This document shows, one piece after another, positions 15,401 to 45,198 of a DNA stretch of 64,000 nucleotides. Source of the stretch: Undaria pinnatifida (taxonomy: Eukaryota; Sar; Phaeophyceae; Laminariales; Alariaceae); the NCBI GenBank assembly GCA_012845835.1, contig JABAKD010000016.1, positions 4,887,919 through 4,951,918 of the forward strand, in the 5' to 3' direction. Both the position numbers and the translations under genes were made by a program. Under the pieces are notes generated by a model. The model ran no database searches and was not told where the DNA came from. It worked only from the letters and a program-made list of their open reading frames with translations. How positions within the stretch are numbered: the first letter of the stretch is position 1; the number at the start of each line of letters is the position of its first letter.

Positions 15401-18400
15401 ATACCCCAGGGAAAAACACACACACAACCCAAGGTGGTACACGCATATATCACAGCTGACGCAATTCATGCCTCCACCAGAAACATATAAAAGTGGAATC
15501 GGGAGTCAGTCTAGGATGTGCCAGGTCCATACTGGTGCATACGTCTCACTACTCGCGCCTGGAAAAACCGACTATACCGCTTGCCACCCAAGAAAGACTA
15601 CTACGTATATATTACACGTAGTATCTATCACTACGCATACGCACGACAGACGCAAGTCAATTGCAAAATAAAAAAAAAAAAAAAAAAAAAAGAAGGAAGG
15701 GAAAGAAAAGAGAAGAAAGCGCACAAAAAATCGAAAAAGGACAGGAAAGAAAAGAAAAGAAAAGGCAAGACAAGAAATGCAAGGACAGACAAGACAAGAA
15801 GAGGAAGCAAGAAAAGACAAAACGGGAAGATGAAGCAAGGAAAGGAAAAGAAAATGTCATACTAACAGACCCTAGCACCTGAGTAAAGATGGCATTGGGC
15901 TCATAGAGGGTATCAAGTGCATCATCAATGGCACTGTGGAGAGAACGCAACACGGCGAAGAAGTCAGGGCGGTCTTACGCTATTTTGTGACGGCAATTGG
16001 AAGGCCCACAAATTTCAAGACGATGATGACCAAACCCAGACTTCAGTCTCTTGGCCATGACGCCCCCCCCCCCCCTCCCCCTCCTTCCCCCCTTCCCCCC
16101 TCCCCACCCCCCCTCCCGCCTCCCCCCCCTTCCCCCTTCCCTCGGCCGCTTAGAGATGCCGACGGTGGATGGCGCTGCCGCAGCCTTTGCGCGTCGCTCT
16201 GCAGCTTTGCGTCTCTCCGTTTCATGCCAATTCCGCACGAACAACTAGGCTCCCTCCTCTACTCGTCGAAACCATCTGCCGGCCCTCTGAGCAGCCTTTC
16301 GCCACCCTTCGAATTTCATTCCAAAGACCGACATATCCTCCTTCAGATGATCCATCCAGTCTTTCTCTTGCCCCCTTGAGTAGCCCTTACCTCCAACAAG
16401 CTCCCCAAACATCACCCTCTGTGGCAGACGCTCTTCCCCCATACGTGCTACAAATCCCGCAACCAATACCCTCCGTTTACGCACTATCGCCTCTATGCTC
16501 TCGGAAGCTGCCTTGGCAAGCGCGTCGGCGTACGATAGGGTGTGGTCGTCGCGCTTCCGTTTCCGCCATCCAAGGCATCGAAGGAGCATGGAGTGGTGAA
16601 CCCGTCGTAGCCTGTCATAGTCAGGCTTCTTCGGGATCCACGTCATGCAACCGTGAAGAAGTGCCTCGACCACCTCAACTTCAGCAACCGCACCTTCAAC
16701 CGTAACCGCACACCCGGGCGATCATAGATTTCCATCTTGTACCGCTGGACGCACGCCCAGGCCCTCTGAAGACGCCGCGTTATTTCAATGCCAAGGTCTC
16801 TGTCCGCGGTGATAGCCCCGCCCAAGTGCACAAGCTCAATTGTTTGTTTGTATACCTGGCCGACTGCATTGATTGTGAAGGACACCTTCCCCCCGCCTTT
16901 GGTTTCCAGGCACATTATCTCTGTTTTTGCCTCGGATGCCATAAGCCCGAACGACGAGCACGCAGTCACGATCACCGTCATCTTTCTCTTCAGCCCTTCT
17001 GATGATCGCGATACGATGCCCTCATCGTCCGCGTACAGCATACCCCACAATCTCTGCACCTCATCCCCCTCGTTCCCCCTCCGCCCGTCGACTTTGCCTG
17101 TGCGTGAAGTGCCCTTCTTCTCGCCTTCCTCCTTTCGTTGGAGCTGCACCATGTTGTCCGTAATGGCTGCATCAGCGAGGAGGCGTTTCTCGGCCACACG
17201 CAGTACCGCCGTGAAAAACATGTTGAACGCCAGTGGCGCGAGCACGCATCCTTACCTGAGACCTGGCCCCACGTCGAACTTATCCGAGCACTCTCCATCA
17301 TCCAGCCGCACGCATGATTGCATACCGTCGTGGAATTGGCGAATGACGGCGAGCATTCTCGGTGGCACGCCAAAACGAGCAAGGGCATCCCACAGAAGGG
17401 TTCGGTCGACGGAGTCGTATGCTTCGTTGAGGTCGATAAAGCATAAGTACAAGGGGGTGTCCTTCTTCCGCGCCAGTTCCTGCAGTCGTCGTACTACGAA
17501 CATCATGTCAACCGTCGAGCGTTGGGATCTGAACCCACACTGTTCCTCCGGCAGAATGTTCCAGCGTTCGCAATAGTCACTCAGGCGATCCGCGATCACT
17601 TTGAGGAGTACTTTGCCGGCGTGAGCCAGGAGGGAGATGCCACGATAATTGCCACACTCAGTTCGATTTTTCTTCTTGTGAAGCACCTTAATCGTTGCAT
17701 CTTTCGATTGTTGCGGTACGCTACCTCCCCTCCGCACAGCGACGATGATATCGTGGAACTTTCCGAGGGTGTTCAATTCTCCTTCGTTGGCCAAAACTTT
17801 CAAGAGCTCGGCCGGGAGACCATCGGGCCCTACCGCCTTTCGATTCGCCAACGCACGGATCGCCCCCTCTACTTCGTACCTAGACGGGACATCATCCAGT
17901 GGTCTGCACGGGGGCCACTGCTTAAGCTTGTCCACAATGCTCGGATCAAGGGTCGGCGACTTGGTGTAAAGCAGTTTGTGAAACCGCCTAACCCACCGCT
18001 CGCGGATGAGGGCATTATCCCGCAGCAATCGACCTTCCTCGTATTTGATGTACTGCGAGTTAAACGTCCTCTTCCCTTCCACATCCATCCCCTTGAGGTG
18101 TTTGTAGAAGCCAAATTGATCACCCTCTCGGATACGCCTTTCGAGTTGGCTATCGTAATCTTCGAAGAACCTCTGAACAGCTTCCGCCCGCGTGCGTTTC
18201 AGCTGTTTGGTGGTCGTCTTCATGGCTTGCCGTAGACCACGATACCACGATTGTTTGGAGCAGAACGGACCCGTTTCCTCGCGTCTTCCCTATCCTGCCA
18301 TCGTGCGTTCAACTCCGCTTTCGTCTCGTCGGTCGCACACCAGCCCCTCGGTACTTGTTTGCGCCGAATAGGGGGCGCTATATCGGCCGCATTTCATAGC

Positions 18401-21400: not shown

Positions 21401-24400
21401 CACTAACTTCAAGTAATGTTGCTGTTCGCGGTAAGCCAATTTATCTGGTCTTAACCTCCCGAAGAGTATTTGACCGGACGATCTTAACCTAAGAACAATA
21501 CTCGTGCTGTAATGGAGTGCCCTCCGTGGAAGGATATTTTATAGATATCGACGTGAATCCATGTCATAGTTGAGGTGAAACCACGTGATACTAGATGTCC
21601 CACTCACGTCAAGGCCATCACAGATGGGCAATAATGTAGGTGACGATGATGGGACAAGCAGGACGCCCCTCATCTCACTACCCTGCACTGCCCTGCACTA
21701 TTGTGCCCTACCCTGCCTAGCCCTGTTATGTCTGTGTTTTAGCATTTTGTTTAAGGAAATAATGCATAAGCTTTGAGCCTAGACAGCGAGCCACGGGGAG
21801 AGACCAACCGAGGACACCGGAACGCATGAGGGGCACGCTTCCCAACACCGCCAAACCACGCATCCCCCACTCGGAGTACTGTCACAGTACACCACTAAAG
21901 TCACACACGTTGTTCTTATTGTCGTTACGGATAGTAAATGCTGCTCGCTCGGCCCGACGTCGACATCTCTATGACGAATGGGTTTAGGTTGTTGTATACA
22001 CTAGCAATAGTACTCCGAGTTTATTTTAACGTTTTTGCTTTTATGCCATTGTAGTGGTGTTCAAGGTGTTTTGTGACTGTCGTGTGGTACGATCGACGGC
22101 AACGCCACACATTACCTGGTAGTATTTCCGGAAGGCAAACCTGGTACCTGGTAGCAGTAATGTAAACATTTGCGCGTTTTTTCTTTATGAATGATTGCTT
22201 GCGCGGCAGGCGGAGCTCGCGAGAGAGAGCTGCCTCAAGGGCGAAGAAAAGGAGGCGGAGACGACGCTGTGGGAGGGGGAGGTACGTATGTATGTACGTA
22301 CGATCTTTCAAATCTCGCTCTCGAGTGAAGCTGTGATCACCACCCGTCCGTCCCTGTCATTTGTTTGTCTCGCTCTATGTACCGCCCAATCCACCCGTCC
22401 ATGCTGTGTTAAGGAACTAGTAGTGGGGTATTAGTCCGTTTGACCACTTGCAAAAATGTAAACCGCAATTTTAGCTTACCCAAACGAAGCCTTGTAACAC
22501 TCTTTCCCCCGTGAAACGGCGGGATAGTTCAGGTCGGCCGGATATACGGGCGGACCTGTCAATTATCCAAGCGGTTTCATATCTTGGGGATACTGGGGAG
22601 AGTATTTTTCAAGTACGACATGGCGAATAAAAAATTCTGAAAAAGTTTATTATTGTGGATGGTGGGATTTGAACCCACGACCCAAAAAAAAATATGGTTT
22701 GTCGACGACGCCATTTGTTAAGGAATTAGGGGGGTACTAGTCCGTTGACCACTTGCAAAAGGTTAACCAATAGCTTACTCAAACTAAGCCTTATAACAGC
22801 TGCCATCGTCCACGAGTGGGTATGGTAAATACCGGCCTATCTACCGTACAAGGTTCATTCTTATCCAAACGAGCGTTGCCGAAACTTAATAAAGAAAATA
22901 AAAATAAACATAAGTTGATTTCCAAAATAGGCGCAGCAAAGAAATCGTAACTATACAGGAGAAATCTTATTTCCGTGCTTTTAGGGGGAGGGGAGGGGGG
23001 GGAGGGGGGGCACCGTCAAATCGAGGTTTTGGAAAGATACCAACGAGATTTTTTTGACGCGTTCTACGATGGTAGTAGAGGTGCACCCCGATGTTAAGAT
23101 ACGGCCTCGAAAGGTCTGTAATTATCCGAATTTGATATCATTTGGGTGGGTTTCGTATGATAAGGTTGGCGTTGTATATTCGGGATTTTCAGGAAATAGA
23201 TCGAAGGCACGTGCCTCCGATCTCAGAACGTATCCGGGGCTCTGGTGGAATCGAATAAAGCTACGTCTCTACGAAGGCAAAGAAAGTGAGTACTCTCCGA
23301 GGACCTGCTCAATTGGCAGACCTGCAGGGGGCACTATGTGTCCCCGCCCAATACCCTTACACTATGATTATAGGTATTAATAATAGCACCTTTTTTTTAT
23401 AAACTGTTGTCTAAAGCACTGGTTTGCTGTATGTACGGTATTTTCGTTCCTAGGACGCACGCTACGATGTACCTGGTAGGTGTTAAGGTATACCTTTTGG
23501 CGGAAACGTTTGCTGATGGACGGGGCGGGGCTCCTAATTTTGTACCCAAAAACGGGTTTCCAGTCGTAAAGCGTTGGCCGAAAAATTGTCGGAATTCAGT
23601 ATTAAAAAAAAACAATCAAAATTGTTGCATACCTAGGCCATGGGCTTGTTCATCGGGTATGATAACGCTTTTTTCTTCCGCCCAACCCCAAAAAGTAACT
23701 CATTGGCGCTGTCATCCATAAGCGAGAAATCAGGCAAAAGGTGCCGAAAACCGTCTTACGAGAGGTTTTTGGAAGGATGTAGTTCATTCACCCTTCACGT
23801 GACTCTCGCCGAACACCTCACGGCGCTTGGCGCTTTTTGCAAGCAAAATGCCTGCCTGGTTTGGTGAAAACCCGACGTGCCCCGCCCCGGCATAGTAGGG
23901 ATGCGAAGGTCTATGGCTATACAACGACGGCCATGTGTTAACGTATTAGTGGGGCATTAGTCCGTTTGACCACTTGCAAAAGGTTAACCAATAGCTTACC
24001 CAAACTAAGCCTTATAACGCATGCATGAATATCGAGTACACCCCCCCCCTCCCCCCCCAACCCTAAATTAATTTTTGCCTCAAAAGGCATAAGGTAGACC
24101 TCCTCAACAGGTCAAGAGTCTCAGAAAAAAAACGGCGCCCACGCCTCTACCGTTGCGTCTGCATCGTTACGGCGGTGGAGCGCGTGGGCAAGTGTTTCGA
24201 CCCACCCAAGCACCAGCTTCCAATTTTTCATTCCACTCTCAGCCGGAGAGAATTTCCAGAGATAGTCCGTGTGTATTGTTGCACAACTAACTGGTGTAAA
24301 GTTGGAGCATTTCGTTACGAGCCGGTGTGTCTGTCCCTGCCCTCGCCGTCCCCGCGGTTTGATCGCCGCTGATCTGCACTCCGCCGGTTTGATTGTCGTG

Positions 24401-27400
24401 GTTCAGATTTGCTGCTTTTTTTGGTTACCGATGTTTTGGTTGCCGCTGTTTTGGCTACGCACGTTTGATTTACCACTGCATGGTTGCCGCCGTTCGACTA
24501 CCGCTGTTTGATTACCGCTGTTTAGGTTAACTCTGTTTCGGTTACCGCTGTTTTGATTACCGATGTTTTGGCTACCGCTGTTTGGTTACCGCTTTTTTGG
24601 TTACCGCTGGTCGGTTATTGCTTCTTGGTTATTGCCGCTTCTTGGTAGTCCGTTGTGCTTCCCCTCGCAATAAGCTCGCTTCGATATTAGGCGCCTGCAA
24701 GGACAGGGACTGTTTGAGCTGGAGCTGGAATGTTTTCTGAACGGCGGCACTCCTAAAATCCCTTCAGAGCCCCCGAAATCCCTCCCCATTCTAATTCCAA
24801 GTAACATGTCCTCAAAAACGGGTTTCCAATTGCAAAGGCGTTCACCCAAAATCGTCAGAATGTCATTCTTGTTTCAAATCCAACCTAGACCGTGGGATTA
24901 TTCTTCACAATACTAAAACTTAATGTAGCACTTTCATTTTTTGTCAGAATTCGCTTTTGTGTGAGATATAGCTTATACTTCGAAGTACCATAACACTACT
25001 GTATACAGACCTCGTCAGGTCAAGTGCCTCGAACAGAAACGGGCGCACCTCTCCCGTGCCGTATCTATGCCATTCGTTGCTGATGCCATTACGGATATAC
25101 TACACCGTTAGGAGGAAGAAAACTAAAACCAATCAGCCCCTGCCTTTAGAACCGCACTCACGATCTGGGAACGAACCACTTTTGAATTAGCGTGGGGTAA
25201 CTTATTGTGCAGTGTGGATAGAGGGCTAAGGGGAGGGAGCGGAGTTTTCCAGCTTGTTTATTTACCCCTCGCTCGCGAGTACGTTCGTAACCTCTCGTGT
25301 ACACGCCACAGCAGGAGCCCACACGCGAACAGAGCCGTCGCATGGGAGAGCTTACCTGGAAAGTGAAGACGTTTTCCCTTTTTTTTGCGTGTGAGTGTTC
25401 CAGCTCGTCCTGTTAACAGCGATCTCCGTAAAAAAAGTAGTCCGTTGATAGTCCTGTTGCTGCATCGAATTTTGCGGTCAATATTACTGACGATAGTAAT
25501 CCCGTATCACTGCTGTATCGAATTTTGCTATTATAACAGAGTAATGTTTCCGGTAATAGCAGTCCCATAGCTGTTACAATGTATCGATCTTTGCTGCTGA
25601 CAGGAGCTGGCCCTGCGCTACGTCCTCGAAGACGGGAAGATCAACGTCTGCCTGAGAAACCTCATGGAGTGGAGGGAGTTTCACCTCAAAAACAGGCGGC
25701 AGAGTATGGTCGACACCTCCCCGTCGGTAAGTAGTTGTTGTGGTATGGTATGGCATTGCCGTCGGAGACTAACCAAGTATAGGATATCTAGGACACGGAA
25801 ACGGTGTAAAAGGATATCACATAGCCTTTTTGAAGGCATGTGCGTGCAGGAAATTAAGGGCATGAATTGCACCACGTTGAGCGCTTAGTTCTATCCGTGG
25901 TACCTTGCGGGGTTTCATACGAGAGCTTCTCTAATGCAAGTGAGTGACCAAACGTGGAACCTGCCCAAATGCTGTATGTATGTGGTAGAAACACAACAAG
26001 AGGGTGGCCTGTGTCTGTAAACAGACCCTTGTCTTATAATACAGTGCACTTGAATGAAGGTATCGTGTCTGCATCAAGTTATTGTATGAAGGTATACTCT
26101 TCATCAAGGTACTGTATGGTAGGAAGATACTATGTGTCAAGCTATAGCATGAAGGTACTCTGTATCAAGGTATTGTATTGTATGAAGATACTCTTGTGTC
26201 AAGGTATTGCATGAAGGTACTCTGTATCAAGGTATTGCGTGAAGGTACTCTGTATCAAGGTATTGCATGAAGGTGCTCTGTATCTCAAGGTATTACGTGA
26301 AGGTACCCTGTATCGAGGTGTATTATGTGAAGGTACCCTGCACGCAGGTCTTGTATGAAGGTACTCTGTATCAAAGCATTGCATGAAGGTACTCTGTGTC
26401 AAGGTATCATATGAAGGTACAGGTAGTATCAAGGTGTTGCATGAAGATACCCTGTAAAACAAACTACAGTATTGCATGAAGACACCCCCCGTAACAAGCA
26501 GATACTGTATTGTATGAAGGTACTCTATATCGAAGGTACTGTATTGCATGAAGGTACTCTATATCAAAGGTACTGTATTGTATGATGGTACTCTGTATCA
26601 AGCTATTGTGTGAAGGTACTCTGTCCGACGGCATATCTGCCAAAGAAACCTGATGGAGCGGAAGGGTTTCCACCCCGGAAAAAGGCAGCATGCGAAGACG
26701 GACACCACATCGGTGGTTAGAATGTTATGCCAGTTTTAAGTCAGTGTCGTATGAGGTTACAGCAACCGTATACTCCCAGGGCAATACCATAACACTAGCC
26801 CACCCTGATGAGCCGTATATACAGAAATACGAAAGATTCAGGGAAGCACCGGTTCCACGGTCTAGAACATGACTTGAAGATGCGGCTCTTGAAAACCCAC
26901 TGCCACTCCTCCACCGTGTGAGGCTACGAAGCCTTAGGAAAAACGTTAAAGCAGAACACCGAAAACGGAGAACGGAAGAAAGATGAGAAACGGGCTGCAG
27001 AAACCCCAACGGTAAAAGCGGAATCGACCGACACGAGAGCTATCGGTTTCCTCAGATTAACGCCGGGGGTGGGAAAAAAAGGAAACATGAAAAAGGAAAA
27101 CGGGAACTCAGCGGTGATGGCGTCAAAAAGCCATCGCCAGAAAAGAAGAAAACGGGAACTCAGCGGCGGTGGCGTAAAAAAAAAGGCGATCGCTTGCATC
27201 CGAGGGACGCGGGTGACTAACGAAAGAGAAGAAATAAAAATAAAAAAATGCGAGAAACGCCGGAGTTGAAGGCGAGATAAGTGAAAACCTCTCGCCGCAA
27301 AACCCTTAGCGGTCGCAAAAACATGCCAGAACACTACGCACGAAACTCTGCTCACGCGCGGAATGGACACTGTACGTAACCCTGCGCGGACGACGTCGAA

Positions 27401-30400
27401 ACCATCGAAAAATCGGAGAAGCAACGGGAAATTTAATATTCCCACCCCCTCATGAAAACTAAGTCAAAACCCAGAAAAACAAATATCCCCCGAAAGCTCC
27501 CAGGGCGATACCTACAACATCGCCATTACGCCGTAATGGAGGCGTTTGCGGTGCCACAATTGAGACCCTTGAGAAACGATTAAACAGAGGAGACAGTTTT
27601 TTTTTCTACTTTTTGGGATTGTTTTGTGAGTGATCGATGGTCAAGCTCATGCTGCATACCGTCTGCTTCGGCAACGAAAAACAATGAACGTCTCGAATTG
27701 GTGTGAAACAGTTAAATGGTCGGATGGCCAAGACTAAAACAATAGCAAGGATATATATAGTACACCAGGTACTGATATAAAAAACAAGAGGTAAAACAGT
27801 ACGGTAGTCTTGACCCCGACCTCGTGTGTTGCATATTGCGTTGTTGTTGTATTGTTTTCAGGTGCAAGAGAGCCTGGACGCCTTCGAGAGGGGCATGGGG
27901 ATTCTCCTGAGAAACGCTTGGGGTCACCTCGAGGCTCTCCAGACCACCGACGTGCCGCTGCTCGTCGAGTACATCACAGGGGTGAGAAAGAGAGAGTGCA
28001 GAACAGGACACCGGACAGGACAGGGACAGGACAGGGACAGGACAGGGACAGGACAGGGACAGGACAGGACAACTACTAACAAGAAATGGGGGAATAAGAT
28101 CGGCCGCCTGATACTTGCAGGAAAATAAGAAATTTGTGTGTCTTTTTGCTGAAGTTGGTGTTGAACGCACCTCTACTAGTTAAGTTAACAAAACCCAGCC
28201 TGGGTCAGTATTTCGGGTTCTTTCCTAGGTGTCTGGTACTATACGGGAAATTACGCGAGGGAATTGATTCAACACACATCGGACAGATCACGATCTAGAT
28301 AATACAAACCATCTAGATCATGTAGATCATAGATCATATAGATCATATAGATCACATAGATCACATAGACCATATAGATTATATAGATTATATAGATCAT
28401 ATAGATAATATAGATCATATAAATCATATAAATCGTGTAGATCATACAGATCATATAGATCATACAGATCTTATATCTATCGTTGTAATATGTTGTACAG
28501 GATCTCGGTGTAGCAGGCCACCGACTTGCCTCTGCTCGAAGAGTGCATCACAGGGGGGAAAGCTTGAGAGTAGTGTTATGGTGTCGCCAAGTCCCTGTTG
28601 CAGCGTTGTGATCTAGCGGAATTGTCCCCCACAAGTACCTGGCAGGCGTTATCGCCTGCCTGGATGAAGGGAGCGACTCGTCCCTCTTCGGTCAAAACAC
28701 ATTTGGGCAAGGTCCCACACTGCCTTTTACCTTCACAGCCGGGAAAATACCTCCTGGTAAAAAAGCAAGTCTCCACCATCTGGTATCTCCAGACGAGCAA
28801 ACAAGGAGAACAACTTGGAACATTCTGCCCAGATGGCATGGCTTGCACGAAACGCAACGCTTTTCTCGGCGAAAAAGCAACCCACACATCGTTTCACTGC
28901 CCCCTTCTCCCTCGCCTGGATGAGCCATACTCCGCGGTGTCGCTGCCCCCCTCTTCTGGATGCAGGTACTAAAAGACGCAGCTGAGAACCCGGGCATTCT
29001 TGAGGATATGTGCCTGAAGGGAGAGCTGAGGGATCGCCAGGAGGTAAGGCAGGGGCTGCAGCACGGGAGACGCCCTCGCGTGTTGGGCAAATCAACCCAT
29101 CGCCCCCCCGCCCCCCATTGTTGTTTTAGGCCATCGATATTACGTTCCAGCTCGACTCGCGGGAGGTTTTATCCTTTTCTATTATCCTTTTTGCTTTCCA
29201 GGCTGAAGTTTCGGGAGGATTCATACACCCTCAGCGGCGTTCTCGACAAAAGGCCGTTGTCACAGGTGTCTTCCCCCCCCCGCGATATTCTCTCTTCGTT
29301 TTTATCACGCACAGGGGGCATCCCTCCTACTGCCCGTCGATTTGTCGTCGAATTTCGCTGACCCGACGTTCTCGGATTTTCAGCGACTATACGAGGAAAA
29401 AAACGCACATAAGAACACGCTGTTGGTTTCCAACCCCGCCGGGCATCGGCTCTCGGTCCTTACGTATAGCACATGTAACAAGGCAAGCCTGTCCGGCTGC
29501 CGCTGCTGTCACACGCGGACACGTAGAGTAGCGTACGTACTGTGGCGAGATTTTTGGGGTAATAAAAAATTACCCAAGAAGATAATGTCTTTCGAGATAT
29601 AGATATAGATATAGATATAGATATAGATATAGATATAGATATAGATATAGATATAGATATAGATATAGATATAGATATAGATATAGATATAGATATAGAT
29701 ATAGATATAGTCTAGATATAGATAGAGATAGAGATAGAGATAGAGATAGAGATATATATAGATATATAGATATATAGATATAAATATATAGATATAGATA
29801 TAGATATATGGCCAAGGCTATGGTGGGGGTGTACCCCCAATTTTCACCGCCGGGTCTAAGGCATCATACTCGCACGAGTGGCTCTGTAGTACCTCACTGT
29901 CGATACGACTTTCTTCCTACGATATGCTTGGCGCAGCGTGGCTAACTGTTGCATCGCGGATTTCATGTCGCGAAACTGAAATAACAGCACCAAAGCTTAA
30001 GACGGCAAAGGAACAACGGGAGGAGGTGTCACTCGGTGTCACTCGCGCGGCTGTGACTCCGGGCCACTGCAAAAAAACAACAACAACAACAACAAAAAAC
30101 GGACCCCCCTATTGTAGCATTGGTCATATATACACATATACATATATAGTCTACATATATAGTCTATGTATATATAATTGCTTTTTGGGGCCGCACTCGT
30201 GACAAAGAGAGGTGTGATGCGATTGATGTGATTGATGTGATTGATGCGATTGATGTGATTGATGTGATTGATGTGATTGATGCGATTGATGTGATTGACG
30301 TGATTGATGTGATAGAGTAGCGGGCTAAGATCGGATTTGCACCACTTTTTTTTCTGAGATTCCCTCGTGTTGGGAGCTTAAGACACGTCTTAACCCCCCA

Positions 30401-33400
30401 AACAAGAACGACTCCAAGAGAGAAATGAAACTGCTACCCCGGATGCATAGTCCTTTGACGGCCTACGTTTACAACGAGAATATCATCCAAAAAAAAAACA
30501 TGGACGAAAATTCCGACGATTTTGGGTTAAGCAGCCCCGCCATTCAGAAAACGTTTTCGCCAGAAAGAGGTATACCTTAATACAAATTCCGACGATTTTG
30601 GGCCAAGCAGCCCCGCCATTCAGAAAACGTTTTCGCCAGAAAGAGGTATACCTTAATACAAATTCCGACGATTTTGGGCCAAGCAGCCCCGCCATTCAGA
30701 AAACGTTTTCGCCAGAAAGAGGTATACCTTAATACAAATTCCGACGATTTTGGGCCAAGCAGCCCCGCCATTCAGAAAACGTTTTCGCCAGAAAGAGGTA
30801 TACCTTAATACAAATTCCGACGATTTTGGGCCAAGCAGCCCCGCCATTCAGAAAACGTTTTCGCCAGAAAGAGGTATACCTTAATACAAATTCCGACGAT
30901 TTTGGGCCAAGCAGCCCCGCCATTCAGAAAACGTTTTCGCCAGAAAGAGGTATACCTTAATACAAATTCCGACGATTTTGGGTCAAGCAGCCCCGTCATT
31001 TTCATCAGAAGAATTTTCAGACCAAAACTGCTACAAGTACGTATCTCTATCGTAGCCCGCATCATGATGCGGGCAGATGCGGGTAGGTAGGTCTGGCGGA
31101 TTTTGGCTAAACGTCTCAGGGCTTCAGCGGGAAAATCGTCGAGAACAAAGCGACGGTTACAGCACAGCAGCAGCATCATAAGCCAGCCGTGCGCCCACGT
31201 TGTCGGGGACAGATGACACGAAATGACTTACAACTGTGCTGGAGTCACCCCACCGTACGCGGGTTGCAATTTTTTGTGCCAAACCGAACGTTTCTGACCT
31301 TCTGAGCTTTCGACCGGTTGAGCTCCTGAAGCGCGAAACTATTGGCTGGTGTGATAACTTTACGAGTATCTCAGCAGCTTTAGTGCAGGACTAGCGCATA
31401 AAACAGTCGGTCGGGTTGCGCCAAGGAACGCCTTCGAAGTCATGTATTATCGAGTGAGATGTTCACCTCCTCCTCCTCATGTTAGGAGCTCAGAAAATTC
31501 TTAGAATCTGCTGCACCCCTTGATATCGTGGAATGACTCCCTAGAAATGAGGATTTCAAAGAATCTTCTTCCTAATTGAGTCGCGCACGTACAGCGGTGT
31601 ACACAGGCGCACACGCAAGGAAGCGTAAGAGGGGAGGGTAAAAAACTAGAAAGAAGAAAAAGGCTCAAGTGTCTCGTTTTTGATTTGTTTTTCAACACCG
31701 AAATCCGCCTGTCTGCCTGTCCGCCTGTCGCCGGGCTAGAATGCACATTTATAATCCCTTCTGGTGATTACAATTGTTTCAAGTGGGAGTATGGAAGAGG
31801 TTTTCGCTCATGACAATTGAGTTTCCCCTTGCACTTTTTGTTGTTATATATAGGTGATGGAAGTGAGTATATTGTTGATTCGTCACTTGTCCTGTGAAGA
31901 ATCTGGGAGGGTGTTGATTTGAGGTTTTCAGTATGACAGTTACTTGTCAGTTTCGTGCCGTTTCGGGCTATTGGACTTATTATTATAGGTACCTAGTAGT
32001 ATCTGGGTGGCGTTCTTGATAGTAGGCTGCTGTGAGCTATCACGCACGAGTTCGTTCTTCTCGGGGGTCCGACGCATGATGACTTCTCTGCACCGATCGC
32101 AACGAGCAGAACAGGGAGAAGACGCTCTCGCTGGCTTCGAGCCAAGTCGTAGAGAGAGTTCGTAGAGGGAGCTCGCTTCGGCTGGGTGTTGCGTGGGATC
32201 GTTTTGGCCCAGTGCGGTAAGACGGAGAGATTTTCATCGTGCAGGGCTTACTGAAGAATCCTCGTTACTCATTTTTACTCTCCCTCTTTTGGGAGTGATG
32301 GCTTGAGGATAATTTTTGAAAGTTCTACGAACGGGTAAGCTCGTTTTTTGTTTGTTTTACGCCCGCCGTGTGCCGTCGTTACCGCCGCCCATCGAAAGTA
32401 ACAAAACCAAAATCGTCGCCCCCCTTTCATTTTGCGCAAGATGATTTTCGTCTGAGCTGCTTGCGGGGGGCTGCTGTCGCGCCTTATCGAATGCGCACAT
32501 GCGAAGAGGACTGGATGATGCCGCACATCGGGTCGAAACTCAAACTCCCTCCAACCCTTGGTCATCTTGCGTCTGATATAAGATCGTTTTGCCATACCTG
32601 CAATGCCCTCCCGTCCGTTATTTTCCGTCTAAAAAATAGATTATTTGTTTGAGCTACTTGCGGGGGCTGCTGTCGCGCCTAACCGGATGCGAGGAGGGCC
32701 GCGTGATGCCGCACATCAGGTCTAAACGGACGACGTCTCATCTGGCTTCGATGCTGCACGTCAACCACGGGCACCTCACGATGAAGGTTAATGCGATAGG
32801 AGCGGAGGCGCTGGCGTATGTGTGCGACACAGAGGATTTCGGCATGTACCGGGTGAGATATTAAGCGAGGAAGGATGTACTGCCAGGAAAGAGAGGGGTG
32901 AAGGGGGGAGGAGGGGAGAGGGAGGGAAGGGGGTGGGAGGGACGAAGAGGGAGAAGGGGAGGGGGCAGGGGGGGGGGGGGGTGGAAGCACCCAGGGAATG
33001 AGGCCAAGGTGGTGGGGGCGATGGCGCCGGCATATGTGTGCGGCACAGAGGATTTCAGCATGTATGGGGCTAAAAACGAAGGGAGGTGGGCAACGGAGGG
33101 GGAGGGGGGGGGGGAGGAGGGGGGGGGGGGGCGCTGGCTTATGTGTGCGACACAGAGACTTCGGCATGTACCGGGTGACAGAACGAGGGGGAAGGGCGGA
33201 GGGATAAAGTGGGGGGATTGGGGAAGGGGGGGGGGGATGGGGGAGTGGAGAGGCGGGGGGAGAGAAGAATCGCTGGCTTACATGTGTGACAGAGGATTTC
33301 GGCATGTACCGGGCGATAACACAAGCGAGTAAGGGGGAAGGAGTGGGGGCAGGGAGAAGGGGGAAGACGGGGAGGGAAGGGGGGAGACGGGGAGGGAAGG

Positions 33401-34646
33401 GGGGAGAGGGGGGGAAGGGGGGCAAGGAGGGGGGGAGAAGGGGAGAGAGGGGGGAGGGGGGGAGGAGGAGGTAGGAGGAGAGACGGGGCGAGGGGGGACG
33501 GGACGAGGGGGGCGGGACCGGGGGGCGACCGGAAGGGGGTAGAGGGAGGAGGGAAAGCATGTTAAACCTCCTGCCGTCGAAGACACCGTTTGTTGAGGAA
33601 TTAGTTCGCTAGGCTACTGCTAAAACATAATGGTAGAATACCCTGTTACGGTCCAGTAAAAAATAATCTTGACGCCATATTACATGATTGCATGAAACAG
33701 GCTGGTTTGTTTTTCAATTGGGCCCATATCCCACCCTCGATGTGCTAGCTACTTAGCGCCACGGCCAGCATCACCAGCCACGAGCCAATTCATCATGTCC
33801 AAGCTGTCAGCTATTAATAGTCTCAGGTTGGATCGGCTTTTTGTCGCCCCTGCCGCGAAAGGGTCGACCCCTCAAAGGAAAAACCGGCTGTAGAAGAAGT
33901 CAGAGGTGGTATGAGCTACCGTACGGCCGACTTCACGCATAGCATCAGCAAGAGTTCGGTCAGGAATTGGCTGACGGCAATGTCGGCATCAGTTGATCCT
34001 GCCGCCTTTTCTGACCCAGGAAGAGGAAAAACAGTTATGAATAATGGCGCTAGAAAAGCGGGGATACCGCGTTTTTGTCCCCGATTGAGCTCCGTCCTTC
34101 CCATTATTATGGGCGTTGAAGGAAAAATGTAGGGCTTCCCCACAGCCTGTGCAATTATCGGGCGTTCAGAAGTGGACCTCAATTGGACCACACTGTTTTT
34201 TGGCCGTTTCTGTTATCTTTGCAGCAACAAAATGCACCGCCGGTTAAATAGCGCAGTGTTTGATTTTTGGTATTTTTAGGCAAACGCGATTGACTATTTT
34301 TATGTGATTTTTTTTTACGGCATCGGATTCCATCAAGTATCTTCGGATTCATCCGAGACACCCAACAAAAACGAGCGGATCGCGTGCAAGAAGGCTTAGA
34401 ATGGACCTTCAAATTGGGCAATCTACTCCAAAACGATCACCCAAACCAAGCCTTGAAGCAACTTGAAAATGAAATGAAGAAAACGAAAACTCTTGCCCGC
34501 CTTTCACTGCCCGCTACCGCTGCTACCACTACTAACTGTTGCCAGGAGGAGTACATTGGCACGAAAGAGAGGGTGACATTTATGTGTCTAAAGGACGACT
34601 TCGTTGGCGAGTTGTGCAAGGATCCCGAACAGAGGAAAAAACTCAG
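9258..34646 (+). CDS. Multi-exon gene, unknown helical protein (exons listed separately)
   Basis: Ten exons can be read on the plus strand: 9258-9359, 9497-9577, 14090-14170, 22210-22281, 25604-25726, 27862-27981, 28966-29043, 29130-29165, 32654-32852 and 34546-34646. Almost all begin and end in phase 0, have AG acceptors and GTGAG/GTAAG/GTACG donors, and encode charged, Leu-rich, likely alpha-helical peptides. The junction into 32654 needs a two-base carry-over, so at least one exon before it is missing. The exon at 34546 ends in phase 2, so more exons must follow. I do not recognise the family. The segment at 14090 is loosely like BAR-type helices. It could be two neighbouring genes. A LINE and SINE-like repeats sit in its introns, and several introns hold decayed copies of its exons. 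Confidence 0.4.
9497..9577 (+). CDS. Second exon of the unknown helical gene
   Basis: Follows CCCAG. Twenty-seven codons reading [18 protein letters not shown] then FLKYFFEIL, then a GTACGT donor. Phase 0 at both ends. The peptide continues the preceding helix without a break. Confidence 0.5.
10100..10500. other. Stretch without a recognisable gene
   Basis: Between the exons at 9577 and 14090 I found only repeats (listed) and open frames without splice support. The frames at 10065-10514 are mutually overlapping on both strands and have no family resemblance. Confidence 0.4.
10775..10940 (+). repeat. Dispersed repeat R5
   Basis: Starts near CCTCCGGCGGATGGGGAAA, continues through CTCACCACACTTCCACGT, CGTGTGTCGATTTAACTCA, and ends near GCTGTCCCTATC. 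A second copy is at 43505-43672 and the first few tens of bases recur at about 20543. An R2 fragment follows at 10935-11055. Confidence 0.7.
11120..11520. other. Low-complexity A/G-rich stretch
   Basis: Long A and G runs with (AACACGAAGAA)-like steps. A roughly 40 bp motif containing ACTGCTGTT, ACGGACAAAACAA and CGAAGAA is repeated about three times between 11310 and 11420. No gene. Confidence 0.5.
11720..12200 (-). mobile_element. LINE 3' remnant, related to the 16-20 kb element
   Basis: The minus strand reads [44 protein letters not shown], and [15 protein letters not shown]. These match in order the segment after the reverse transcriptase in the larger LINE ([52 protein letters not shown]). 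Only the C-terminal part is present, so it is a 5'-truncated insertion of a distinct, diverged subfamily with a different downstream tail. Confidence 0.7.
12565..12875 (-). mobile_element. tRNA-related SINE-like element S1, copy A
   Basis: About 300 bp. Read on the minus strand it has a head with AACAAATGGCGTTGTCGACA, a B-box-like GGTTCGAATCC, then a body with TTCAAGTTCGA... and TATCCGGCCGACCTGAACTA, and a tail ending AACGGACTAATACCCCACTA. The same layout is found at about 15008-15320 and 22424-22735, and a headless form at 37395-37608. Head plus B box is typical of tRNA-derived SINEs. A LINE partner was not identified. Confidence 0.6.
12885..13150 (-). repeat. Dispersed repeat R6 (inverted copy at 23075-23345)
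   Basis: About 260 bp. Both copies can be read as KIRPRK.C.YPNL.SFG.VSYDKVG.-like peptide, then YPGLWW.RIKL.LYEG, but open frames differ at the end. The block includes GCTCAATTGGCAGACC, which resembles a tRNA A box. It may be another SINE-type repeat rather than a gene. A tail-only S1 fragment follows (13147-13215). Confidence 0.55.
13147..13215 (-). repeat. S1 tail-only fragment
   Basis: Contains TAGTCCGTTTGACCACTTGC and CTAAGCCTTATAACA, the complement of the S1 3' tail, without body or head. Similar isolated tails are at about 22735-22800 and 23950-24020. Confidence 0.6.
13590..13960. repeat. Dispersed repeat R7 (CGACT-rich)
   Basis: Rich in GTCGGC/GCCGAC words, with palindromic CCAACTAGTTGCTAGTCGG, GACCATCAGCTGGTTGCGG and AACGGCACCTACCGATTAG. 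Partial copies are at 20325-20525 and 21072-21235 (same GACCATCAGCTGG, CGGCACC...CCGATTAG, and GTCGTGAAATGCTGCCGACT order). Looks non-coding. Confidence 0.6.
14090..14170 (+). CDS. Exon of the unknown helical gene
   Basis: Follows a good pyrimidine tract and GCGCAG. Twenty-seven codons reading [18 protein letters not shown] then RIADISEAE, then GTGATC. Phase 0 at both ends, so it can be placed between 9577 and 22210. An alternative donor further on (after LEWTDG) would change the phase. The peptide is a likely helix, faintly like the central helices of sorting-nexin/BAR proteins (alternating Ala/Leu with ALGRIAD). This is a guess, not a call. Confidence 0.5.
14230..14950. other. No gene seen
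   Basis: Intron-like sequence with scattered TGCTGGT and TGTTGTGTT repeats. No splice-supported open frame and no clear mobile element before the S1 tail at 14950. Confidence 0.4.
14950..15320 (+). mobile_element. S1 copy B with an S1 tail directly upstream
   Basis: The full copy starts near 15015 (CCTTAACAAATGGCGTCGTC), has GTGGATTCAAATCCCACCAT as the T-arm-like hairpin and B box, and ends AACGGACTAATACTCCACTA at about 15320. Immediately upstream (14950-15014) is another S1 tail ending AACGGACTAATACCCCACTA, so the two are joined tail-to-head. Confidence 0.65.
15325..15615 (-). repeat. Dispersed repeat R3, inverted copy
   Basis: Reverse complement of 4960-5245. It directly follows the S1 copy, so the two repeats may travel together. 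Confidence 0.6.
15660..15860 (+). repeat. A/G-rich low-complexity tract
   Basis: A run of about 21 A followed by AAGAAAAG-type steps for nearly 200 bp, one strand almost entirely purine. The Lys-rich and Phe-rich frames over it are not genes. Confidence 0.85.
16040..16145 (+). repeat. C-rich tract
   Basis: Pure pyrimidine on the plus strand (CCCCTCC, CCCCTTCC steps) directly after the LINE C-terminal frame on the minus strand. It may be the LINE's 3' simple-sequence tail or an expanded microsatellite. Confidence 0.7.
17252..18223 (-). CDS. LINE reverse transcriptase, main open segment
   Basis: The longest open piece of the LINE (323 codons). It includes a linker region with [19 protein letters not shown] and [13 protein letters not shown], a motif like [20 protein letters not shown] (thumb-side region 0-1 of LINE RTs), and fingers/palm motifs up to FDVGPGLR. 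The catalytic YADD lies in the next open piece (16643-17245) in another frame, so this protein cannot be made whole as it stands. Confidence 0.8.
20090..20290. repeat. GC-rich self-complementary repeat
   Basis: Repeats of CGGGTCGGGTTGGGT and the facing CCCGACCCGATCCGTGAGAT, with ATCTCACGCATCGGGTCGGG opposite, so the two halves (20155-20190 and 20225-20250) could pair. A related GGTCGTGACCCG/TCGGGTCGGGTC block is at 40230-40330. Between it and 21500 there are R7 fragments and no gene. Confidence 0.45.
21500..21895 (+). repeat. Dispersed repeat R8 (second copy at 35365-35770)
   Basis: About 380 bp, close match between copies. Landmarks are GTTGAGGTGAAACCACGTG, CACGTCAAGGCCATCA, TAGGTGACGATGATGGGACA, CTACCCTGC steps, TAGCCCTGTTAT, GGAGAGACCAACC, and CACGCATCCCCCACTCGGAG. 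No coding frame is kept in both. Ends carry short inverted text around GAGTAC, suggesting a non-autonomous DNA element. Confidence 0.7.
22210..22281 (+). CDS. Exon of the unknown helical gene
   Basis: Follows GCGCGGCAG. Twenty-four codons reading [17 protein letters not shown] then TTLWEGE, then GTACGT. Phase 0 at both ends. The peptide is highly charged and probably helical or coiled. Confidence 0.5.
22424..22800 (-). mobile_element. S1 copy C joined to an extra S1 tail
   Basis: On the minus strand the full element has head (GGCGTCGTCGACAAACC), hairpin GTGGGTTCAAATCCCACCAT, body and tail. At its head end, 22735-22800 is another S1 tail. This is the same tail-to-head junction as at 15014. 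Confidence 0.65.
22975..23025 (+). repeat. G-rich tract
   Basis: GGGGGAGGGGAGGGGGGGGA-type run. Could form G-quadruplex on the plus strand. Confidence 0.8.
23075..23345 (+). repeat. Dispersed repeat R6
   Basis: Inverted copy of 12885-13150. Shares ACGGCCTCGAAAGGTCTG, TCCGAATTTGATATCATTTG, GTGCCTCCGATCT and ACCTGCTCAATTGGCAGACC. It is open in one frame over most of its length. Confidence 0.55.
23520..23605 (+). repeat. R4 fragment
   Basis: Right part of R4 (AAAAACGGGTTTCCAGTCGTAAA) followed by AAATTGTCGGAATTC. Confidence 0.6.
23783..23925 (-). repeat. Dispersed repeat R12, reverse copy
   Basis: Complement of the family at 41563-41720, 46680-46825 and 58280-58390: shares GGTGAAAACCCGACGTGC, CATAGTAGGGATGCGA and the CGCTTGGCGCTTTTTGC end. 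Followed by an S1 tail (23950-24020). Confidence 0.6.
24380..24640 (+). repeat. Minisatellite, about 18-bp unit
   Basis: Degenerate repeats of GGTTACCGCTGTTTTG (about a dozen units). No gene. An R4 copy follows at 24745-24870, and 24870-25600 contains no recognisable feature. Confidence 0.75.
25604..25726 (+). CDS. Exon of the unknown helical gene
   Basis: Follows GCTGACAG. Forty-one codons reading [19 protein letters not shown] then [16 protein letters not shown] and VDTSPS, then GTAAGT. Phase 0 at both ends. A clear amphipathic helix with an aromatic patch (LMEWREF). A decayed copy of this exon lies 1 kb downstream (26627-26716). Confidence 0.6.
26055..26620 (+). repeat. Minisatellite, about 26-28-bp unit
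   Basis: About 20 degenerate units of GAAGGTACTCTGTATCAAGG followed by TATTGCAT. The array ends within a few bases of the decayed exon copy at 26627, and both lie in the same intron. Confidence 0.85.
26627..26716 (+). pseudogene. Diverged extra copy of the 25604 exon
   Basis: Frame gives [20 protein letters not shown] then [10 protein letters not shown], which aligns with [20 protein letters not shown]... of the real exon. The frame is open, but the acceptor side has no AG in a usable place and the donor is weak (GGTGGT against GGTAAG). It is either a dying duplicate or a rarely used alternative exon. Confidence 0.6.
26900..27700. other. No gene supported
   Basis: Purine-rich plus strand with tandem GAAAACGGGAACTCAGCGG blocks (about 27097 and 27148). 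The long minus-strand frame is Phe/Ser-rich and has no splice or family support. Confidence 0.4.
27862..27981 (+). CDS. Exon of the unknown helical gene
   Basis: Follows TTGTTTTCAG. Forty codons reading [18 protein letters not shown] then [19 protein letters not shown] and ITG, then GTGAGA. Phase 0 at both ends. The peptide is a long helix, turn (TTDVP), helix. A partial copy of its 3' half is at 28514-28556. Confidence 0.6.
28010..28072 (+). repeat. GGACAGGGACA minisatellite
   Basis: Several units of ACAGGGACAGG just inside the intron after the 27862 exon. Confidence 0.9.
28290..28480 (+). repeat. (GATCATATA)n-like repeat
   Basis: Degenerate 9-10-bp units (TAGATCATA, TAGATTATA) over about 190 bp. 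The Ile/Tyr/Met frame on the minus strand is an artefact. Confidence 0.9.
28514..28556 (+). pseudogene. Partial extra copy of the 27862 exon
   Basis: CAGGCCACCGACTTGCCTCT and what follows match the exon's CAGACCACCGACGTGCCGCT end. The reading [13 protein letters not shown] parallels [13 protein letters not shown], but the donor GTGAGA has become GGGAAA. It is preceded by TGTAG, an acceptor-like end. Not usable as an exon in its present form. Confidence 0.65.
28966..29043 (+). CDS. Exon of the unknown helical gene
   Basis: Follows GGATGCAG. Twenty-six codons reading [18 protein letters not shown] then GELRDRQE, then GTAAGG. Phase 0 at both ends. Helical, acidic. Confidence 0.55.
29130..29165 (+). 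CDS. Possible small exon of the unknown helical gene
   Basis: Follows TTGTTTTAG. Twelve codons reading [12 protein letters not shown], then GTTTTA. Phase 0. The intron before it would be only 86 nt and the donor is weak, so this is less certain. Further open frames to about 29605 (for example [20 protein letters not shown] from 29315) may also belong here, but the introns between them would be too short. Confidence 0.3.
29595..29809 (+). repeat. (GATATA)n / GATA microsatellite
   Basis: About 20 perfect ATAGAT units, then GAGATA and ATATAGAT variants. Confidence 0.97.
30205..30320 (+). repeat. (GATTGATGT)n minisatellite
   Basis: About 12 units of 9-10 bp, TGATTGATGTGATTGATGCG style. Confidence 0.92.
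30509..30999 (-). repeat. 76-bp tandem array, six full units and a partial
   Basis: Units start at 30509, 30585, 30661, 30737, 30813, 30889 and 30965, each beginning AATTCCGACGATTTTGGG. Inner units look essentially identical. The period is not a multiple of three, yet the minus strand stays open through the array, so each unit is read in successive frames ([10 protein letters not shown], then [10 protein letters not shown]). The edge units diverge. Related single copies are near 61740 and 50285. Confidence 0.95.
31400..31540 (+). repeat. Dispersed repeat R9
   Basis: Shares ACGCCTTCGAAGTCATGTAT, GTGAGATGTT..., TTAGGAGCTCAGAAAATTC and CACCCC...GTGG with 39955-40075 and 61310-61440. A reverse fragment is at about 37803. 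From 31540 to 32450 I see no gene. Confidence 0.55.
32454..32572 (+). pseudogene. Extra copy of the 5' part of the 32654 exon
   Basis: TTGCGGGGGGCTGCTGTCGC, GATGCCGCACATCGGGTCGA and CATCTTGCGTCTG mirror the start of the exon 200 bp downstream. Frames differ from it in the middle. It lacks the 3' half and has no donor. Confidence 0.65.
32654..32852 (+). CDS. Exon of the unknown helical gene
   Basis: One carry-over base plus 66 codons, reading [19 protein letters not shown] through [19 protein letters not shown] to [16 protein letters not shown], then GTGAGA. Starts after TTTGAG and needs two bases from the preceding exon. Ends phase 0. Copies of its 5' part lie before it and copies of its 3' end lie after it. 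Function not recognised. Confidence 0.5.
32985..33325 (+). repeat. Three tandem decayed copies of the exon's 3' end
   Basis: CTGGCTTATGTGTGCGACAC / GGCATGTACCGGGTGA-type text recurs at about 33025-33075, 33131-33182 and 33271-33325, each followed by G-rich sequence, as after the real exon end at 32852. Copies have lost frame (one lacks a base in the ACAGAGGA segment) and donors vary (GGCTAAA, GGTGACA, GGCGATA). Confidence 0.75.
33330..33550 (+). repeat. G-rich purine tract
   Basis: GGGGAGGGAAGGGGGGAGAC-type text over about 220 bp, continuous with shorter G runs from 32885 onward. The long Pro-rich minus-strand frame (32679-33560) is an artefact. Confidence 0.9.
34546..34646 (+). CDS. Last exon found of the unknown helical gene
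   Basis: Follows CTGTTGCCAG. Reads [16 protein letters not shown] then [17 protein letters not shown] plus two bases, then GTATCC. It starts in phase 0, matching 32852, and ends in phase 2, so the gene continues to an exon I did not find. Confidence 0.45.
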
Positions 34647-34739
34647 GTATCCCGAACAGAGGCGGGGGCGGGGGGGGCGGGGGGGGGGGGAACCCGACGT
34701 AGCAAGAACCCTTACCGAGAAATGCCTTATCGTAGCATG

Positions 34740-37394: not shown

Positions 37395-37608
37395 CGAACC
37401 CCCATGTCGAACTTGAAAAATACTCTCCCCGGTATCCCCAGGAAATGAAACGGCTTGGACATTGACAGGTCCGCCCGTATATCCGGCCGACCTGCTATCC
37501 CGCCGTTTCAGGGGGGGGGGGTGTTGTAGGGCTAAGTTTGGGTAAGCTATTGGTTAACGTTTTGCAAGTGGTCAAACGGATTAATACCCCACCAATACCT
37601 TAACATGT
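37395..37608 (+). mobile_element. S1 copy D, headless
   Basis: Begins CCATGTCGAACTTGAAAAAT and ends AACGGATTAATACCCCACCA. The tRNA-like head is missing, replaced by the adjacent minisatellite. Confidence 0.6.
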
Positions 37609-40515: not shown

Positions 40516-40702
40516 ACGCCTCCTCCCTACCGCCCGCCGCTCCTGCCGGGTGAATCAGTACTTAAGCGCCCCCTCTTCCCCGCCGCCGCCCCCCCCCACC
40601 ACCACCAATACTACCGCCACCACCACCGCCACCACCATTACCGCCACCGCCACCATCATTACCGCCACGGCCACCGCCACAGCACAACGTCGGCACAAGT
40701 AA

Positions 40703-41308
40703 CTAAAAGCCGCTTCCGGTTCCTCTCTGCCGCTTTCCCACCGTGCCTGTACCAGCCGCTGCGGCTCCTCCGGTCCTTTCTCGCAAAGACGTATCCGCGG
40801 GACCCTCCAGCAATCCAGGGACCGCTCGGTGCAACCCCCCAGCCCCACCCTCAAGCGCAGAGACGGACCCAGCACCAACAAGAAGACCATTGCCACTTCT
40901 GCTGCTGCTGCTGCCGCTGCTACCACCACTTCGTTTGACCCCAACACCACCACCCCCGAGTCGTTCACTGCTACCGTTGGCAAGAAAGCCCCCGTTGCTG
41001 CCATTAACCGCCGCCGCTGCAGCAACAGCAGCATCGGCAGCAGCAGCAGTGGCATCAGCAGCTCCGCCAGCTACCGCCGCTACCTGCTCGTCGGAAACAC
41101 CACCAACTCCACCGTCGCCACCACTCTTACGCTTGCGATCGCTGATCTTCGCCATCGATTCCGGGGGCGGGCGAAGGGTGGTCGGTATTTTTTTTTTGGT
41201 GCGGTCGGGCTGAGTTGATAACCGCATGCGCAGGTACAGCTCTGCCTCCCAGAAAACGGGGGGGGGAAGGGCATCCACCTTAACCACGAAATAGCCCTCC
41301 TCGTTGTC
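40703..41308 (-). CDS. BET gene terminal exon: NET second half and tail
   Basis: Follows CCGTTTTCAG in phase 0. Starts DNEEGYFVVKVDALPPPVFW, completing NET, then KISDRKRKSGGDGG, a long Ala-rich stretch (repeated GCN codons), Gly/Ser-rich linkers, and ends KRQRGTGSGF before a TAG. About 201 residues. The plus-strand frames over it are shadows. Confidence 0.85.
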   Translation of the reverse strand, partial: DNEEGYFVVKVDALPPPVFWEAELYLRMRLSTQPDRTKKKIPTTLRPPPESMAKISDRKRKSGGDGGVGGVSDEQVAAVAGGAADATAAAADAAVAAAAAVNGSNGGFLANGSSERLGGGGVGVKRSGGSSGSSSSRSGNGLLVGAGSVSALEGGAGGLHRAVPGLLEGPADTSLRERTGGAAAAGTGTVGKRQRGTGSGF

Positions 41309-44300: not shown

Positions 44301-45198
44301 TGCTGTATCCCATACCCTAGTACTGGCGGTATCGATGGCGAAACGCGCAGTACAGCAGTTAGAACATCAGTATTAATACGGTATGATGATATTATTAGTA
44401 CTGCTGTAAACTAAGTACTGCTGTAGACTACAGCAGCAGCGTTACCGTGGGTACTTTCGAACATCACGAGGAGCGGCGAAATATAAACTGCGTAATATCA
44501 GAGCATATACCACAGGTCAAGCTAAGCTGTGGCAACATGAGCGAGGTTTCACAACAAGTGACGGCAACCGACCACAGCAGCAGCGTTACCGTGGGTACTT
44601 TCGAACATCACGAGCACGGCGAAATCTAAACTGCGTAATATCAGAGCATATACCACAGGTCAAGCTAAGCTGTGGCAACATGAGCGAGGTTCCACAACAA
44701 GTGACGGCAACCGACCAACTGCAGAAAACCTCATTTAGAGTTGACATAATACATTTCGTTCGGCTAGCTATTCCAACTGAGGTTGTGTGCTCATTAGATT
44801 CTTGCTTGCTACTTGCTCTCTGCTCGCGCGAAAGGTCTTGTTCTCTGAGGAGCGCGTGAGAATATTCTTTCGATCTAGTTTTTTTTTAGATTTGTGAATC
44901 CGTACTGCTCGCCTGCCAGATCTCTCTGAGACATCTTATGCAAGAGCTGGCCCATCATCTTCATTTCATCCACTCCCGGCTGCTCTGGTCCTCGAAGCAT
45001 CCTGCCACTGTCGAACCAGGTACGCTGTTGCGCAGGTGGGTGTCTCTGGCTCCCGCCGGGCAAATCTTCACGTACACAGCCCCCAAAACGAAACAGCCTT
45101 AATATCTTTATGGAAACCCCGGAGCTCAGGATCAGGATTGGGATCGAACACTCTCGCATCCTCGCACTTTCGCACTTGCTTCTGCCTGCCACTCGCAT
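40703..45198 (-). CDS. BET/GTE-type protein: single bromodomain plus NET domain
   Basis: Six exons on the minus strand: 44913 to about 45198, 44102-44187, 43266-43355, 42774-42852, 42309-42442 and 40703-41308. Splice phases agree at every junction. The bromodomain reads IFNHPVSATEYPDYHQIV, PYPMDLGTIQ, DVRTVWTNAHLYNP and VVAQSARALSKVFEGMY. The canonical acetyl-lysine Asn is the N of NAHLYN. The NET domain follows (DERLKFSRDIYRVEDSQLAE ... NEEGYFVVKVDAL ... LYLRMRL), then a Lys/Arg-rich KISDRKRK (likely nuclear signal) and an Ala/Gly/Ser-rich tail to the stop at 40703. BET proteins read acetylated histones and recruit transcription regulators. One bromodomain plus NET is the plant GTE layout, against two in animals. 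The N-terminus (about 96 codons from an ATG at 45198) and the first intron are tentative. Confidence 0.85.
41563..41725 (+). repeat. Dispersed repeat R12 in BET upstream intron
   Basis: TACTCATGCGTGGCCGTAGT, ATAGACCCTCGCATCCC and GGAGCATGTCCGGTTTTCAC. Lies between a long G run and another G run (41741), within the intron 41309-42308. Confidence 0.6.
42309..42442 (-). CDS. BET gene exon: NET domain, first half
   Basis: Two bases plus 44 codons, (D)FNYAREPNVDERLKFSRDI then YRVEDSQLAEVVDLLEQRC and PDAVVR, then GTGAGT. Resembles the E-E-K-x-x-L-S-x-x-I and VV-x-I-I segments of NET domains. Confidence 0.85.
42774..42852 (-). CDS. BET gene exon: bromodomain helix C
   Basis: Follows CTCGCCAG. Twenty-six codons plus one base, AESVVAQSARALSKVFEGM then YNKINPK, then GTGAGC. 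The preceding intron contains a (GGGA)n tract and an R11 piece. Confidence 0.85.
42870..42960 (+). repeat. (GGGA)n microsatellite
   Basis: About 85 bp of GGGAGGGAGGGA text inside a BET intron. The opposite strand is the transcript strand, so the RNA carries CCCU repeats. Confidence 0.95.
43266..43355 (-). CDS. BET gene exon: bromodomain helices A-B
   Basis: Thirty codons in phase 0, ENIRQNHYPSLEACAKDV then RTVWTNAHLYNP, then GTGAGT. Contains the acetyl-lysine-binding Asn before LYN. Confidence 0.9.
43505..43672 (+). repeat. Dispersed repeat R5, second copy
   Basis: CCTCCGGCGGATGGGGAAAA to AAGCTGTCCCTATCA, matching 10775-10940 in the same orientation, in the BET intron 43356-44101. Confidence 0.7.
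43740..43795 (+). repeat. (CCCA)n microsatellite
   Basis: About 12 CACC/CCCA units. Confidence 0.92.
43900..44092. mobile_element. Diverged M1 relic
   Basis: Has CACAGTGCCGGGTGG steps at the left and TACCGGCGCTGTAGGGGGAC at the right, plus an internal GCAGTGCCGGTTTCCG. It ends about 10 bp before the BET exon at 44102, inside its intron. Confidence 0.45.
44102..44187 (-). CDS. BET gene exon: bromodomain ZA loop
   Basis: Follows TGTTCGTGCAG on the minus strand. Two carry-over bases and 28 codons, IFNHPVSATEYPDYHQIV then PYPMDLGTIQ, then GTACAG. The P-M-D-L motif and the DYHQI segment are diagnostic for bromodomains. Confidence 0.9.
44430..44728 (+). repeat. Tandem duplication, 144-bp period
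   Basis: Two near-identical direct copies starting CAGCAGCAGCGTTACCGTGG (44433 and 44577). In the first BET intron. Recent by its identity. Confidence 0.9.
44913..45198 (-). CDS. BET gene, putative first exon (bromodomain helix Z)
   Basis: The reading MKMMGQLLHKMSQRDLA fits the first bromodomain helix just before IFNHPV. Joining in phase requires a GC donor (GCAG|GCGAGC) rather than GT. With it the split codon becomes Ala. The frame is open back to an ATG at 45198. The poly-basic N-terminal part is not conserved, so the true start may lie at a later Met. Confidence 0.5.

Follow-up and report, generated by a model that had tools for sequence, protein, structure and literature searches.

Introns that hold damaged pieces of their own gene's exons raise the question of where these pieces came from and whether they serve the gene. 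Such a case is presented by a predicted plus-strand gene of the kelp Undaria pinnatifida, whose eight exon-like segments (E1 to E8) extend from 22.2 to 34.6 kb of the window, i.e. the 64,000-nucleotide stretch analyzed here (assembly GCA_012845835.1, contig JABAKD010000016.1, positions 4,887,919 to 4,951,918 of the forward strand), to which all coordinates below refer. An earlier note on this sequence had reported that several exons or exon parts of the gene are duplicated nearby, and had read this as an ongoing process of local copying that could also create alternative exons. The copies prove to be real, and they are probably old, decayed tandem duplications of short stretches running across splice sites.

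To assess the similarity of exons to their surroundings, we searched 1.2 kb on each side and compared the scores with those of dinucleotide shuffles, 300 of the exon and 300 of the flank per tested pair. Exon E2 (25604 to 25726, plus strand), which has an open frame from a CAG acceptor to a GTAAGT donor, is copied from position 25647 to its end. The whole match pairs 25647-25781 with 26636-26772, the exon part being identical at 55 of 81 positions without a gap (exon score 29; the best of the 300+300 shuffles reached 15). In E3 (27862 to 27981, plus strand), the copied part at 27940-27997 comprises the 3' end and 16 intron bases and recurs at 28514-28571, with 36/42 identities in the exon part (score 30; shuffle maximum 16). 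Exon E7 (32653 to 32852, plus strand) is copied from both sides. Its acceptor side, 32638-32727, matches 32439-32539 with 64 of 84 exon-part columns identical and 9 columns occupied by gaps (score 40; shuffle maximum 15), while its 3' end recurs at 33001, 33122 and 33262 with exon-part identities of 54/69, 49/55 and 44/54, respectively. The copy at 33122, the best of these three and the one put through the 300+300 test, scored 41 against a shuffle maximum of 17; for the copy at 33001 the score was 42, whereas the best of 30 shuffles reached 17, and the copy at 33262 is supported by a self-BLAST match of 5.6e-22, which takes in purine-rich spacer. All the pairs that the earlier note had named were thus recovered, with copies starting within about 25 bases of where it had placed them, and its claim that different exon parts of one gene have been copied locally is supported. 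The same 1.2-kb search detected no copy of E1, E4, E5 or E6. At the end of E8, 14 bases (34622-34635, plus strand) are repeated exactly at 34649-34662, just past the donor. This repeat, 27 bases from its source, was marginal in the 1.2-kb shuffle test (reached by 7 and 2 of 300 shuffles), and it is one of 47 14-base repeats spaced 15-59 bases in the window, nearly all of them inside arrays.

A tandem duplication across a donor should place the extra copy downstream and let it start in mid-exon, and one across an acceptor should place it upstream and let it end in mid-exon. We examined direction and side at 28 splice edges, placed by eye and drawn from the gene in question, a bromodomain gene and one further exon. 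Each edge was tested on both sides and both strands over 1.2 kb per side, giving 112 tests. Seven matches were obtained, all of them direct. Two were dropped: a match on the expected side that fell in a GGGA array, and a match on the other side whose sequence was judged G-rich by eye. The five kept matches belong to the E2 donor, the E3 donor, the E7 acceptor, the E7 donor and an acceptor of the bromodomain gene, and all five lie on the predicted side; with the two dropped matches included, 7/7 are direct and 6/7 are on the predicted side. The chance of five out of five is 1/32 for direction and 1/1024 for direction and side together, if these are independent. The bromodomain gene, of the BET type, occupies 40700-44190 on the minus strand (Pfam Bromodomain, 2e-21; BET, extra-terminal, 3.7e-6), and at 41740-41849, on the same strand, the acceptor side of one of its exons (source 41253-41362) has a decayed copy. 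As this gene, on the other strand, displays the same pattern, the feature is not confined to one gene.

For E2, E3 and E7, the following intron received a copy of the 3' part together with the donor region; in the case of E7, a copy of the 5' part with the acceptor region also went into the preceding intron. In six comparisons, identity past the splice site amounted to 36/58, 10/16, 13/17, 10/17, 14/21 and 10/18; the aligned intron columns are those of 10/16 for E3 and 13/17 for the E7 acceptor, and about 50 intron bases are aligned at the bromodomain exon. Since the alignments cross the splice site, which is weak evidence for each single pair and clearer at the bromodomain exon, the copies are genomic with intron included, and an origin from spliced RNA is rejected. 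Identity was lower in the intron part than in the exon part in five of the six comparisons, as would follow from a conserved exon beside an intron free to change; separate shuffling of intron parts was confined to a portion of that of E2.

Across all copies of E2, E3 and E7, exon-part identity ranges from 68 to 89%, and the damage differs from copy to copy (all on the plus strand). The E2 copy (26636-26772) retains an open frame and the donor GT and did not inherit the acceptor. The E3 copy (28514-28571), likewise without an inherited acceptor, has kept the frame and lost the GT. In the copy of the E7 acceptor side (32439-32539), the AG is kept; the copy contains indels, stops in mid-exon and is without a donor. 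Of the E7 3' copies, the first (33001-33086) has kept the frame and lost the GT, the second (33122-33195) has a broken frame and an intact GT, and in the third (33262-33331) the frame is broken and GT has become GC. The statement that copies had lost donors or frame therefore holds in part: the GT is gone at 28514 and 33001, and frames are broken at 33122 and 33262, but the copy at 26636 has lost neither, those at 28514 and 33001 are still in frame, and that at 33122 still has its GT. The E7 3' array consists of four successive units, each an exon end followed by purine-rich spacer. The copies at 33122 and 33262 have one base in common that the exon and the copy at 33001 lack, a slight sign that the array may have grown stepwise.

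Is this gene exceptional? The background came from 18 further regions of 10 kb each, four beside the window and the others taken at round positions of seven contigs. Region L025, which lies inside the window, and region L032, which holds a 402-base satellite, were left out, as were, from segment counts and pair tests, pairs with at least 30% in short-period arrays. A direct copy within 1.2 kb was present for 132 of 1221 array-free segments and an inverted one for 30 of 1221, corresponding to 33 direct versus 8 inverted separate events. At least one direct copy occurred in 16 of the 18 regions. In the window itself, direct copies were found for 32/548 segments and inverted ones for 4/548. Measured against the 132/1221 segments, the 5 of 28 splice edges with a copy represent no significant enrichment (p 0.19), nor do the 4 of 16 edges of the gene in question taken alone (p 0.09); special enrichment at exons is accordingly unsupported. 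A contrast within the window (31/564 segments, the 31 being counted by eye) gave p 0.02, a value to be discounted because the gene was picked for having copies; in the same contrast, p was 0.50 for the 12 other edges by themselves. The same kind of local duplication occurs in most of the sampled regions, and no special process appears to be at work. In L032, which is on another contig, the satellite spans 1301-7002 and its neighbouring copies are mostly 94-100% identical.

How might such copies arise and persist? A tandem duplication across a donor would leave the working exon intact and add an extra 3' end to the following intron, and one across an acceptor would add an extra 5' end to the preceding intron. 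Such changes would be tolerable, presumably neutral, and could persist while the extra copy decays. Source and copy would then part as the rest of the unit diverges and the space between the two fills with dispersed repeats and minisatellites. Copies derived from exons would be readily recognised, since the parent stays conserved. At the molecular level, either replication slippage or the repair of breaks may have been responsible; one described route to short tandem duplications is fill-in at breaks that have 3' overhangs (PMC8355091). The spacing of pairs fits birth as adjacent tandem copies that lose their likeness piecemeal: among 62 local direct pairs, source and copy are adjacent in 9 of the 13 with at least 85% identity versus 11 of the 49 below that value (p 0.0025), and in all five with at least 90%.

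Several observations weigh against this account. Four of the 13 pairs with at least 85% identity are separated, and identity shows no rank correlation with gap over the 62 pairs taken together (-0.03, p 0.81); once strongly overlapping pairs, i.e. arrays, are removed, the coefficient is -0.27 (p 0.054). Part of the association of likeness with adjacency may come from weak pairs that align over only a portion of the unit. Moreover, source and copy are 98, 516 and 854 bases apart in the pairs of the E7 acceptor, E3 and E2, respectively, and a search for homology beyond the ends of these three pairs found none, which counts against a plain tandem unit, as such a unit should fill the whole spacing. 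Adjacency at birth is for this reason a matter of inference for these copies. At the bromodomain gene there is a weak hint of continuing homology (10/300 shuffles).

The same features speak for local templated insertion, in which a break in the intron is repaired by copying a nearby exon edge, as in joining of the polymerase-theta type: the copies are short, lie apart from their source and are without continuing homology, and the four separated pairs of high identity point the same way. Templated copies are, however, expected in inverted and direct orientation at about equal frequency, and on either side of their source. The uniform direction and side of the five kept edge matches, albeit a small number, the excess of direct events in the background and the adjacency of all pairs with at least 90% identity do not agree with this. 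Owing to the common orientation and side of the edge matches and the adjacency of the most alike pairs, templated insertion, one of the two routes proposed earlier, is less likely than tandem duplication, and we regard it as rather unlikely. The other proposed route was slippage driven by neighbouring minisatellites. Minisatellites are indeed present in the intervals that separate E2 and E3 from their respective copies, and the E7 3' copies lie amid purine-rich arrays. Among the 62 pairs, however, a short-period array was within or near 16, as compared with 20.3 expected, and 460 of 500 random placements reached 16. This test left out pairs mostly in arrays, and hence the E7 3' array, which tempers its force. 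A link to minisatellites was not seen among the pairs tested, and slippage of this kind is an improbable cause. That duplication is ongoing has likewise not been borne out for the exon copies, given their 68-89% identity; younger tandem duplications (95-99%) lie elsewhere in the window, at 4227-4521, 30508-31000 and 44426-44724, with periods of about 155, 76 and 143 bases.

Could the copies be alternative or regulated exons under selection? The copy at 26636, with frame and GT kept, and the GT of the copy at 33122 would be compatible with this. However, none of the copies inherited an acceptor together with a donor, because each starts or stops within the exon, and the 71 mismatches of the six comparisons are spread evenly over the codon positions (18/24/29, p 0.28) rather than concentrated at the third. 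Use of a later GT in E7 would end the protein, as a stop codon lies at most four codons past the normal donor. The absence of copies with both splice sites and the even codon-position differences make spare or alternative exons, as envisaged in the earlier note, very improbable; as far as sequence can tell, the copies are decayed. Finally, the similarity itself might reflect chance or shared base composition, and the G-richness of the E7 3' region indeed lifts shuffle scores somewhat. Likeness no better than that of shuffled sequence, which had been named as the observation that would overturn the copies, was not what we found: 0/300 exon shuffles and 0/300 flank shuffles reached the scores of the E2, E3, E7 5'-half and E7 3'-half pairs, and chance can practically be dismissed. 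Taken together, we favor tandem duplication across splice sites.

The view that the copies are part of a mobile family spread elsewhere was rejected from searches of the species' own 511-Mb genome with queries from E2 and E3, E7 and E8 being outside this search. Among the 42 matches listed for a 447-base query (best 40 of 724 candidates scored), the exon part of E2 occurred at no place but its own, and the E3 part gave only itself and the local copy among 64 matches listed (best 40 of 1383 scored). Apart from the window's own place, all matches listed for the 447-base query fall within about 25739-26050. Here, a dispersed repeat designated 'A' (25742-26043, plus strand), for which the listing gives about 40 places besides this one, is inserted about 15 bases past the E2 donor. 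It is followed by a 28-base minisatellite (26050-26624; Tandem Repeats Finder and self alignment), which separates E2 from its copy. Directly after the E2 copy comes a reversed piece of the family of 'A' (26771-27106, minus strand), with a further match at 27343-27403. Most copies of the dispersed repeat that were fetched have one part without the other, and at three loci the second part lies immediately before the first; the E2-E3 intron carries both parts in opposite directions. Similarity of the tail of the E2 copy to the start of the dispersed repeat was reached in 25 of 2000 shuffles. The tail may include the repeat start, in which case the E2 duplication would be later than the insertion of the repeat. 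A stretch beginning where the E3 copy stops, 28570-28667, is 71% similar to 14303-14399. Another dispersed repeat is present at 12543-12864, 14946-15324, 22406-22798 and 37400-37605, its copies being 84-89% identical and in both directions, and a retroelement reverse transcriptase (RVT_1, 7e-17) is found at 17252-18289 on the minus strand.

The exon model of the gene was placed by eye and is incomplete: E6 and E7, as placed, are not joined in one frame. A GC donor is predicted after E6, at 29482/29483. Over 280 codons of the gene, G+C content at codon positions 1, 2 and 3 is 0.58, 0.38 and 0.76, as compared with 0.47 in one intron stretch, which fits true coding sequence. The spliced 260-residue peptide had no match in Pfam or PDB, E7 on its own had none in Pfam, and a viral-contig scan returned nothing.

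The exon-edge copies belong to an already known kind, namely decayed tandem duplications across splice sites. The Exonize survey of 20 genomes recorded partial, boundary-crossing and intronic matches derived from exons, and reports partial, inter-boundary and intronic events in significantly more genes than full-exon ones (PMC12343006). As in the present gene, exon parts match introns of the same gene in those cases, where they are read as unannotated or degenerate exons. As described there, Exonize works on annotated genes and protein-level matches, whereas our comparison concerns exon edges, aligned as DNA, in a gene without annotation. In the RdRp gene of potato, too, the duplicated stretch spans an intron-exon boundary (PMC4974935); in that gene a new spliced intron resulted, whereas here the copy appears to sit in an existing one. 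Tandem exon duplications similarly comprise homologous exon copies within a gene, unannotated intronic ones included (PMC9013439). As presented, that study seeks possibly expressed copies by RNA-seq, whereas the copies described here are partial, decayed and known from sequence. It also quotes a 2002 study according to which about 10% of animal genes have tandemly duplicated exons. Regional tandem duplication of coding sequence has been reported for Drosophila genes (PMC2891723), and the large introns of Ectocarpus are described as rich in transposable elements (PMC12477816). In a limited look at the literature, we found no description of exon-edge duplication in brown algae.

A general background process can thus account for a gene of striking appearance, and the present data provide a first number for this process in a genome with large introns: with short-period arrays set aside, about one in nine 100-base segments can be matched to a direct copy no more than 1.2 kb away. 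Gene finders could take such copies for exons. Since selection conserves one partner in each pair, exon-edge copies could date intron growth. It is tentatively conceivable that local direct duplication is frequent enough to be a main source of intron growth in this kelp genome, and that the introns preserve a legible fossil record of it, with exon-edge copies as the clock.

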